A stretch of 64,000 nucleotides of DNA, taken from contig JANQPX010000002.1 of NCBI GenBank assembly GCA_028285265.1, forward strand, positions 62,001 through 126,000, written 5' to 3'. The stretch's first letter is position 1, and every line of letters begins with the position of its first letter. This document shows, piece by piece, positions 49,751 to 54,770 of the stretch. A program made the translations under genes and the position numbers. Below the pieces are notes generated by a model. That model was not told the DNA's origin. It did not search any database and saw nothing but the letters and a program-made list of their open reading frames with translations. This DNA is from Geminicoccaceae bacterium. GTDB lineage: Bacteria; Pseudomonadota; Alphaproteobacteria; Geminicoccales; Geminicoccaceae.

Positions 49751-51280
49751 TTAGCTGTCATCATCGCTAATCGTTGCCGAATGCTTTGATTGTTCAAACA
49801 CAGCAATTTCAGGGTTAGTTGCCATGATGACGTAGAATTGCTCATCCTGTTCTTTGACGTTGTCATCGATGAGCTCGATCTTAATCTCAGCTTTCCTCAC
49901 TCCGGGATCAATTAATAGAACACCATTTTGGTCTCGAAAATCGCGCTCAGCTTTTGCCGTACCATCAAGCGTTTGAAATGCGATGGGCAATTGCTCATCA
50001 GAGGATCTCGAGAGCATTATGTTAAACGCAATCTCTGATGCACCCTCTGTCGATGTCGCTTGATTAACTTCGATTTTGACAGGATCTTGGGCAGCAATAG
50101 CAGTACTATCATGGGTTACAAAGCTATCCACAGCAGCGGGCTCAACGGCCTCGAGCTCGCTGACATGTTCAACTTGGTTACTGCGAACATGGATGATCTT
50201 ATCACCCACCCTGAGCTGGACAGTGTCTTCAATTGGCAGCTGTCGGTCACGGTCTAGCCATTCTTGCGCTGGCTTGAATCGCTGCCAGCCTGGAATTTCC
50301 GCGGCGAGGTCGACATCCTTCCATTTTGGATGACGCACAGAAGAGTCGCTGAATTGATCAAAGTTGCTGAAGAGCGACTCAACAAATGTGCTTACTTTAG
50401 CGTAGCGCTCATGATCAGGCGACCAATCATAAACCGCAAGCACTTCAGGCACAGAGATGGTCGCAATAGATTCTCCCTCTTCGACGAGCGTTGGATAGTC
50501 CTCATGCGTGAGGGTCGACGGCAGATAGGTTTCTTCGAGATTTTTGTTTATTGGCACCGGGAGCAGATGCAGCCCGTCACTAGCCCCGAGGTCGTTAAGC
50601 GAACTTGCAGGCTTTCCTGTTACCACAAATGCTGCTGCGATCTCGTTGTCTTTGACTTTCTCTATCGCAACATCGCGCTCGTAATGCACGGGCTCGGGCT
50701 TAATGCCCAGGCTTTGGAAAACGTTCTCGGCCGTGATAAAGGAGCCCCGGCCTTCGACATCGTAGCTAACAAGCTTTCCGTCCAAATCCTGAATAGATTT
50801 GATGTGTCGCGCGGCGATCAAATGAAGCTCACTATTATAAAGCTTGGTGATGTAGCGCATCTTCCTTCTGATGTTCGGATGAATGCTATTGCGCTCGACA
50901 TACGCAAGCACGTCTGATTGCAGGATGCTGACATCGATGCCACGAAGGTACATGACGTCGGCAATGCCTTGCAGGGATCCATGGCCAATGACGGGAAGCA
51001 CGCGCAGTTCTCCTGTCTTGTTGAGAACATTCGCCATGTCGGATGCAATAACCGTGCAGGTGCAACCAAGACCCTTGGTGAGTATTCGCACCGTGCCTTG
51101 ATTTACGGTCTGTTTCCAAGCAGCCTGGCTCTTCGGCTCAAGGGCAAGGTTTTTCGCCTCGAGCCCTGGAACAGCGAAACTCATGACGATCAAGATGGTA
51201 GCTAGAGATCTGGCCAACTCACCTGCTTTTCGTGCCATTTTGCCCAAAGTTAAACTCCATTCTTTTTGATTATCTGGCAT
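49751..51280 (-). CDS. TAXI-family solute-binding protein fused to a Calx-beta domain
   Basis: A 509-residue exported protein. After a basic leader and hydrophobic segment (SLATILIVMSFAVPGLEA, residues 25-42) comes a TAXI/NMT1-type binding domain: TVRILTKGLGCTCTVIAS, VLPVIGHGSLQGIADV and RGIDVSILQSDVLAY, continuing to about residue 345. A linker leads to a Calx-beta domain at about 396-509 (STEGASEIAFNIMLSR, IAFQTLDGTAKAERDF, IELIDDNVKEQDEQFYV), a calcium-binding beta sandwich. TAXI proteins normally lack this. No TRAP permease genes adjoin it. The first ATG is used; one at 51235 would also keep the leader. Confidence 0.82.
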   Translation of the reverse strand: MPDNQKEWSLTLGKMARKAGELARSLATILIVMSFAVPGLEAKNLALEPKSQAAWKQTVNQGTVRILTKGLGCTCTVIASDMANVLNKTGELRVLPVIGHGSLQGIADVMYLRGIDVSILQSDVLAYVERNSIHPNIRRKMRYITKLYNSELHLIAARHIKSIQDLDGKLVSYDVEGRGSFITAENVFQSLGIKPEPVHYERDVAIEKVKDNEIAAAFVVTGKPASSLNDLGASDGLHLLPVPINKNLEETYLPSTLTHEDYPTLVEEGESIATISVPEVLAVYDWSPDHERYAKVSTFVESLFSNFDQFSDSSVRHPKWKDVDLAAEIPGWQRFKPAQEWLDRDRQLPIEDTVQLRVGDKIIHVRSNQVEHVSELEAVEPAAVDSFVTHDSTAIAAQDPVKIEVNQATSTEGASEIAFNIMLSRSSDEQLPIAFQTLDGTAKAERDFRDQNGVLLIDPGVRKAEIKIELIDDNVKEQDEQFYVIMATNPEIAVFEQSKHSATISDDDS

Positions 51281-53552: not shown

Positions 53553-54770
53553 TTAGACAGGGTAAACGGCGTTTAGCGTCTGTAGTCCGCGTCCGATTAC
53601 CTCTTCATCGGAAAGGTCTGCCAAGGCCAAGGCCGGTCGTCCGCCGTTGAATGCCATGATCAAGGGGACACCGAAATATTTGTAGAGATTGAGCCATTGA
53701 TTGAATTGTCCCGGCGGTAGCCCGTTTTCCGGCGTGGCGATCCAAGTTGTATCCCGATCCCAAAAGGCCTCCTCGAACAAGAGGTATACCTTGTCGAGGG
53801 TGCCCATGCCGAGGCGAATGATGGCGTCGAGCTTGTTTTGGGGAAGTGGCGGTGAGAAGCGGACGCTTCCCTGCTTAAGGACGCCAAGCGGCAGTGTTAC
53901 GACGACGGCGTCGTAGTGCGCCGGATCAGCGTCTGCGAAGGACAGCGCCACACCAACATCGGTTTGGGTGATGCCCTTAACAGGCCTGCCAAGCTGAACC
54001 TCGTAGGCTCCCTTCAAAGCCGATAAGATGCCAGCATAACCACCGGGAAACTTGACGTCATCACCGCCATAGTCGTGTTGAAGTTGATAGGCGTCGGTAT
54101 TGATTTGCTCGAAGTCGGCACCGGCAGTGTGCTGTACGGACACGACATTCTCGAGCCATTCGGGTGTGTCGTACTCGGCAATCATCCGACCACTCTTGCC
54201 ACGAACAATGTAGCTTTCATCAGTCACGATGTAGTCGTTCTTTACGGCATCAGCGAGTTGGATCAGCGGGTTGCCGTCCACACCGTGGATCCAACTTGCG
54301 CCCAAGTCCAGCGGCCAATCGAGACTGTTATCTGTCCAGATACGGCCACCCAGACGACTTCGCGCCTCAAAGACGGTCACGTCCATCCCTTCGCCACCAA
54401 GCTGCTGAGCTGCAGCCAGACCGCTTATCCCGGCACCGACCACGGCCACACGCTCAACCTTTTGATCAAGCACGAAGCTCGCGGTTCGCATGCCCGACTC
54501 ATAGGCAGCATGGACGGTGCTGTTATACTTAGGAAATACTGCCTCGCCGGCAAAGAATATCCTGTCATTCAACGGCGCCTCGATATCTTGACGATCACGC
54601 TGCATGGCACCTTTCGCAACGTAGGAATATGAGCCAAAAGCAAAAGGATCTTGGCTCCAATTGGTTCGGATATAGCCGGTTAACCGATGCCCCTTTGCAG
54701 CAACGGTCCATGGTAAGAAACCGGATAATAAGTTGCCGCCCAACAAGCCAAGTGCGGCTCGACGTTGCAT
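53553..54770 (-). CDS. Circularly permuted flavin monoamine oxidase with twin-arginine-like leader
   Basis: A 405-residue protein with normal amine-oxidase sequence in the wrong order. Residues 1-25 are a leader starting MQRRAALGLLGG. Residues 30-98 are what normally ends an amine oxidase: WSQDPFAFGSYSYV, DRIFFAGEAVF and STVHAAYESGMRTA. Only then comes the FAD Rossmann start VAVVGAGISGLAAAQQL (108-124), FEARSRLGGRIWTD, LDLGASWIHGVDGNPL, and the body, ending at EEVIGRGLQTLNAVYPV, the point just before the missing C-terminal block in ordinary enzymes. The frame has no stop or shift. In the fold, the C-terminal block packs on the Rossmann domain, so the permutation could still make an active oxidase. 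Probably exported by Tat with FAD bound (inferred). Confidence 0.85.
   Translation of the reverse strand: MQRRAALGLLGGNLLSGFLPWTVAAKGHRLTGYIRTNWSQDPFAFGSYSYVAKGAMQRDRQDIEAPLNDRIFFAGEAVFPKYNSTVHAAYESGMRTASFVLDQKVERVAVVGAGISGLAAAQQLGGEGMDVTVFEARSRLGGRIWTDNSLDWPLDLGASWIHGVDGNPLIQLADAVKNDYIVTDESYIVRGKSGRMIAEYDTPEWLENVVSVQHTAGADFEQINTDAYQLQHDYGGDDVKFPGGYAGILSALKGAYEVQLGRPVKGITQTDVGVALSFADADPAHYDAVVVTLPLGVLKQGSVRFSPPLPQNKLDAIIRLGMGTLDKVYLLFEEAFWDRDTTWIATPENGLPPGQFNQWLNLYKYFGVPLIMAFNGGRPALALADLSDEEVIGRGLQTLNAVYPV

Follow-up and report, generated by a model that had tools for sequence, protein, structure and literature searches.

Flavin amine oxidases (MAO, LSD1, and polyamine oxidases) have been studied heavily. 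Their usual chain order starts with a Rossmann part, which is followed by a substrate part and a closing block. Natural circular permutation is known from Rossmann-fold methyltransferases, in which it is reported to leave cofactor binding in place (PMC1282579), and an engineered permuted flavoprotein has also been described (PMC4408115). The methyltransferases are thus also permuted naturally, but they differ in fold and cofactor from the protein described here. Judged by titles and the beginnings of abstracts, no publication retrieved from the open-access literature deals with a permuted amine oxidase; the string "permut" was absent from the main text of a polyamine oxidase phylogeny (PMC7576179) and occurred 0 times in PMC6341606.

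We analyzed a 64-kb stretch of DNA (here termed the window) that contains a gene for what is very probably a natural circularly permuted flavin amine oxidase, predicted to adopt the usual fold and likely to oxidize polyamine-type amines outside the cytoplasm.

The closing block precedes the FAD domain

According to the original prediction, the block that normally closes an amine oxidase stands in front of the GAGISG motif in an intact frame that carries a twin-arginine-like leader and has no second copy of the block downstream. Each of these points was borne out (Table 1). The frame lies on the minus strand and encodes 405 aa. The protein starts with MQRRAALGLLGGNLLSGFLPW, in which MQRR is followed by a hydrophobic stretch, as expected near the start of a Tat substrate. 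The block motifs are located at residues 38-51 (WSQDPFAFGSYSYV), 69-79 (DRIFFAGEAVF), and 84-93 (STVHAAYESG), and the chain ends with ...VIGRGLQTLNAVYPV, the stop falling where the closing block would begin. A tblastn search with the block over the entire 64-kb window found this single copy, the next best match having an E value of 5.4. The GC content of the gene is 0.55, compared with 0.56 for the window.

Table 1. Positions of the gene and its parts in the window
Feature	Coordinates	Strand	Basis
Complete gene for the 405-aa permuted flavin amine oxidase	53553..54770	-	Intact ORF; Pfam PF01593, 1e-62
Twin-arginine-like leader, residues 1-27 (MQRRAALGLLGGNLLSGFLPWTVAAKG)	54690..54770	-	Sequence; pLDDT <50 for residues 1-18
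Residues 28-101, the relocated closing block, C-terminal in conventional enzymes (NW..DP, GSYSY, FFAGE, STVHAAYESG)	54468..54689	-	Sequence, profile order, LSD1 alignment, conservation
Junction of old C-terminal helix and first Rossmann strand, residues 102-105	54456..54467	-	Spacing in permuted relatives
FAD Rossmann part, residues 106-190, with GASWIHG motif	54201..54455	-	Sequence, Pfam
GAGISG, FAD Rossmann motif, residues 112-117	54420-54437	-	Sequence
Residues 191-405, central and substrate part, up to the final helix that precedes the block in conventional enzymes	53556..54200	-	Pfam, LSD1 alignment
K327, aligned to the lysine of LSD1 GFGNLNK	53790..53792	-	Alignment to LSD1, conservation

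The match to Pfam Amino_oxidase (PF01593) reached 213.3 bits, compared with a gathering score of 19.8, and was divided into three separate stretches; a conventional relative, P0235, was instead covered in one stretch, from residue 1 to 443 of 443. Matches to 105 NCBIfam families were obtained at E values up to 1, and all of the best 25 of these 105 remained below their own cut-offs. Read along the top LSD1 chain, the matching segments of the protein were residues 90-177, 233-403, and then 36-103. The three-stretch LSD1 match in swapped order and the three Pfam stretches therefore indicate that the block order is not due to chance.

The best solved relatives are LSD1 and LSD2 (KDM1A/KDM1B), in whose amine oxidase domain the block order is swapped relative to the window protein, followed by spermine oxidase, N1-acetylpolyamine oxidase, and maize polyamine oxidase, whose block order differs as well. 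After the pieces had been swapped back, the central part and the block merged into a single LSD1 stretch of 104.9 bits, as against 66.3 and 27.3 bits for the two apart, whereas the gain in the whole LSD1 score was small (158.8 versus 152.8 bits before rotation). A single stretch that includes the block was likewise obtained with LSD2, spermine oxidase, N1-acetylpolyamine oxidase, maize polyamine oxidase, and MAO. Where the rotated query has 55 residues, about 210 are found in LSD1, at the position of its 'tower' insert; the window protein thus has no tower-like insert. Furthermore, the window protein possesses an export-type leader, unlike the amine oxidase domain of LSD1 and LSD2. Profile score, Rossmann motif, closing block, and flavin-side lysine are those of a flavin amine oxidase, but the block comes first; every part is present once, with one new junction and one new break. 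The window protein is a permuted variant of PF01593 and not an ordinary member.

Relatives with permuted and conventional order

We retrieved the best 120 of 2700 matches to the window protein, the best 120 of 5652 matches to P0122, a distant member from Ilumatobacteraceae, and the best 120 of 7326 matches to P0235, itself included. Profile positions revealed exactly one block in each of the resulting 361 proteins (queries included), of which 241 were permuted and 120 conventional. The permuted proteins comprise the window protein with its best 120 of 2700 matches and P0122 with 119 of its best 120, whereas the conventional ones are the best 120 of 7326 including P0235 and were drawn on purpose, so that 241/361 is not a frequency. 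When the first 121 proteins were scanned with regular expressions, the order agreed with that from the profiles wherever the motifs were found. Of 79 loci from named genomes (among the best 80 of 86 matches), 64 were permuted and 13 conventional; of the remaining two, one was collinear by tblastn only (L035) and the other was cut by a contig end (L078). Homologues with the same order, which the original prediction had proposed to look for, number more than 200 among the relatives examined.

Judged by record titles, the permuted loci among these best 80 of 86 matches belong to Pseudomonadota, Cyanobacteriota (Okeania and Hydrocoleum), Verrucomicrobiota (Opitutaceae and one other), Myxococcota, and Actinomycetota, although those outside Pseudomonadota are, with the exception of the Hydrocoleum locus L016, metagenome bins by title and possibly mis-binned. 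Cultured strains with the permuted order include Shimia abyssi DSM 100673 and Erythrobacter sanguineus DSM 11032. Source records that name the relatives use designations such as 'flavin monoamine oxidase family protein' or 'FAD-dependent oxidoreductase' and do not mention the swap. Two permuted copies, both with the frame broken in the second half, were observed in one metagenome-assembled genome of Henriciella sp. DT_47 (L055 and L065).

P0235 and its 119 relatives are the nearest conventional proteins found and, where a source is named, stem mostly from Chloroflexota. They share twin-arginine-like leaders (104 of 120) and similar residues around the break, but the order is conventional in all 120 listed. 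Identities of conventional relatives over the best segments amount to 31-43%. Among plasmids, there were 37 matching records, 6 of which covered at least 80% of the query, and the 3 of these 6 that were translated were all conventional. An amine oxidase on Synechocystis plasmid pSYSM, which is presumably the characterized SynPAO, likewise has the conventional order and is placed among the nearby conventional rows of a 53-row tree. Two Haloarcula plasmid loci (L114 and L115) encode conventional relatives with a twin-arginine-like start, and the oxidase gene of L114 is flanked by an integrase-like gene and a transposase.

Breakpoint, junction, and leader

In the 120 conventional relatives, the core and block profile matches are separated by 9-12 residues, as in ALRAMYG-AAIPDPVGWTLTRW of P0235, whose breakpoint loop reads ALRAMYGAAIPDPVGWTLTRW. 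In the permuted P0232, the block opens with TVPEPVAWAVTRW and the chain ends with ALRAMYG. This end is typical: 237 of 241 permuted chains stop 0-7 residues beyond the core profile, at ALRAMYG or its equivalent, and in the examples inspected the block starts with PxP...TRW or an eroded form (RLTGYIRTNW in the window protein). Judged from these sequences, the chain of the relatives is opened at one loop, ...ALRAMYG/xxPxP...TRW. The link between the old C-terminal helix and the first Rossmann strand, measured between profile matches, comprises 3-10 residues in all 241 permuted proteins and 4-6 in 222 of them. Hence a single loop was opened, and the short link that connects the former termini implies their proximity in space.

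An RR pair followed by a hydrophobic stretch was found in 96 of the 121 nearest permuted proteins (absent from 25) and in 78 of the 120 more distant ones (absent from 42). A lipobox accompanied this leader in 50 of these 78 distant permuted proteins and in 45 of the 104 conventional ones. Within the set P0122-P0242 without P0235, twin arginine, hydrophobic stretch, and lipobox thus occurred together in 50 of 120 proteins, as compared to 0 of the 121 nearest; to judge by these motifs, the 50 proteins look as if they were Tat-exported lipoproteins.

Conservation, structure model, and co-variation

Conservation was assessed across 302 rows of permuted and 150 of conventional order, protein/locus overlaps included (287 and 149 without duplicates). 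In the 302 permuted rows, G112, G114, G117, E135, G142, R143, K327, W38, G46, F73-E76, T85, H87, and G93 were conserved at 96-100% (rounded). The share of K327 was 1.0 in the permuted and 0.99 in the conventional rows (rounded), and the FAD and catalytic positions agree between both sets. The LSD1 lysine to which K327 aligns has a role near the flavin; for the window protein, cofactor and lysine are assigned from conservation.

An AlphaFold2 model based on 90 permuted sequences had a pLDDT of 90.6 and a pTM of 0.88, and ten-residue pLDDT means across residues 31-100 were 84-97. The moved block is modeled with strands at residues 28-35, 48-50, and 71-73 and helices at 57-64 and 86-101. Residues 101-405 of the model aligned to LSD1 274-737 with VIA-align, residues 28-100 lying outside the ranges shown, as expected from a sequential aligner. 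The best TM-score over the query listed by Foldseek, which is also sequential, was 0.68.

Co-variation analysis of the permuted set revealed six pairs between block and core at 4.36 to 1.74, compared with 1.38 for the best of three block-shuffled controls, although the shuffles also remove relatedness. The strongest of these couplings were low in the conventional set (V100-V290, 0.56; Y90-A119, 0.38; M94-A119, 0.41). Between the top 100 pairs of the two sets, 4 were shared exactly (200 rolled controls: mean 0.45, maximum 2) and 18 within two residues (mean 10.8, maximum 20), with a rank correlation of 0.09. Shared co-variation between the sets is thus only suggestive. Taken together, the order in relatives, the rotated query, the breakpoints relative to conventional proteins, and the confident model support the circular permutation originally put forward.

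Predicted function

The flavin-binding closing block lies between the twin-arginine-like leader and the Rossmann domain, and the chain ends at the loop that leads into the block in conventional enzymes. From model confidence, residue conservation, and co-variation, the block is predicted to dock on the Rossmann part in the manner of LSD1 and polyamine oxidase, with FAD held by pieces that are adjacent in sequence. K327 and the flavin would catalyze the customary reaction, oxidizing the amine and releasing H2O2, and the folded, FAD-loaded protein may be exported by Tat. The window protein is likely an exported FAD amine oxidase of the polyamine-oxidase type that forms an aldehyde, an amine, and H2O2, where we infer the substrate and the export.

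A permuted, folded protein of another activity, either a related flavin enzyme (e.g. a dehydrogenase) or a binding protein built on this scaffold, is unlikely but has to be weighed: no permuted member with a known substrate was found, no conserved gene neighbors point to a pathway, and position 50 in the GSYSY motif, which lies near the flavin in LSD1, varies between Y, F, and H in the permuted rows. Against this stand K327, the FAD motifs, and the WIHG histidine H162 (98% of permuted rows), all of which are kept, and the identity of the nearest solved relatives. The GASWIHG motif provides a histidine like the one described as highly conserved in polyamine oxidases (His64 of mouse PAOX; PMC9355956). 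By motif and position, H162 is the putative equivalent of that residue. Amine oxidation remains the preferred assignment.

We consider it fairly probable that these proteins form a hitherto unrecognized subfamily that is present in at least five bacterial phyla and goes back to a single permutation. Both halves of its FAD site would constitute one continuous N-terminal domain behind a Tat leader. If true, this would be a natural permutation of the LSD1/MAO/polyamine oxidase fold, in which these halves are otherwise split between the chain ends. The influence of chain order on folding, FAD loading, and export could readily be tested on the permuted clade, for which the conventional relatives would serve as controls.

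Origin of the permutation

The number of permutation events was addressed in unrooted trees. The 53-row tree contained two changes of order, with two distant conventional rows placed among the permuted ones, and a single change occurred in only 2% of its bootstrap trees; two changes were also drawn in a quick tree of 100 rows. These trees speak for a permutation that arose more than once or for a permuted form ancestral to the nearby conventional clade, for which we see a small probability. On the same 53 rows, however, one permuted clade was not rejected (p-AU 0.25), and on the 100 rows the tree that keeps the permuted rows in one clade was better by 60 log units (p-AU 0.955). In a careful tree of 49 rows in common register, the 26 permuted rows formed one side of a branch (support 99/96; 100% of 200 bootstrap trees), although this tree lacks four distant conventional rows, one of them flagged as long, that were picked after the 53-row tree had been seen. 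The break in the same loop across the permuted proteins also argues against multiple origins. A single permutation event is most likely, if not proven, and because LSD1, MAO, and the polyamine oxidases have the conventional order, the permuted order would be the derived one, which speaks against the ancestral alternative.

A single event in bacteria, followed by spread through horizontal transfer, may have passed through a duplication intermediate that is now lost. None of the 361 proteins had two blocks by profile, and the long frame of L072 gave one block match and no second block on reading its tail. Tandem duplication and trimming would yield the permuted order with a front leader; alternatively, the 3' end may have been copied behind the leader, the old end then being lost. 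Twin-arginine-type leaders precede both orders, and any origin scheme must therefore keep or regain the front leader, which needs an extra step in the tandem-duplication scheme.

Distribution and genomic context

The permuted gene is rare. Collinear, near full-length matches were detected in 2 of 190 genomes in a sample of the class (G000, the genome of the window, and G148) and in 3 of 398 Pseudomonadota genomes in a sample of the phylum, its own included (G000, G340, and G517). The family of G340 had such matches in 11 of 198 genomes, one of them cut at residue 351. Among the 31 genomes of the order to which the window belongs, only its own harbors the permuted gene; it also contains a distant conventional relative, on contig C57.

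An artefact of assembly or annotation, or a broken gene, for which this solitary occurrence and the estimated contamination of 6.95% in the window's genome might speak, has next to no probability, given that the frame is intact, the catalytic residues are conserved, and the same order recurs in the 64 permuted loci from independent assemblies, cultured strains among them. Misassembly, which the original prediction had named as a possible refutation, and a pseudogene are ruled out by this shared order and the conserved residues.

Mechanically picked open reading frames flanking the oxidase gene at 66 permuted loci and in the window (up to 6 kb, less at some loci) were clustered and, apart from the oxidase, no cluster was present at more than 7 of the 67 loci. 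Several neighbor clusters were confined to Marivita-type loci, and one, representing a shared neighboring gene, to the four cyanobacterial loci. The scattered distribution likely results from horizontal transfer. The genome of the window, in which the permuted gene is on contig C68, measures 8.5 Mb, compared with 2.0-5.9 Mb for the 30 others of the order; it is possible that the gene was acquired by transfer or lies on a foreign contig.

Elsewhere in the window, a 509-aa open reading frame on the minus strand (49751-51280) encodes an NMT1_3-type (TAXI-like) solute-binding protein that carries a Calx-beta domain at its C terminus, a pairing within one open reading frame that is, to our knowledge, unusual.
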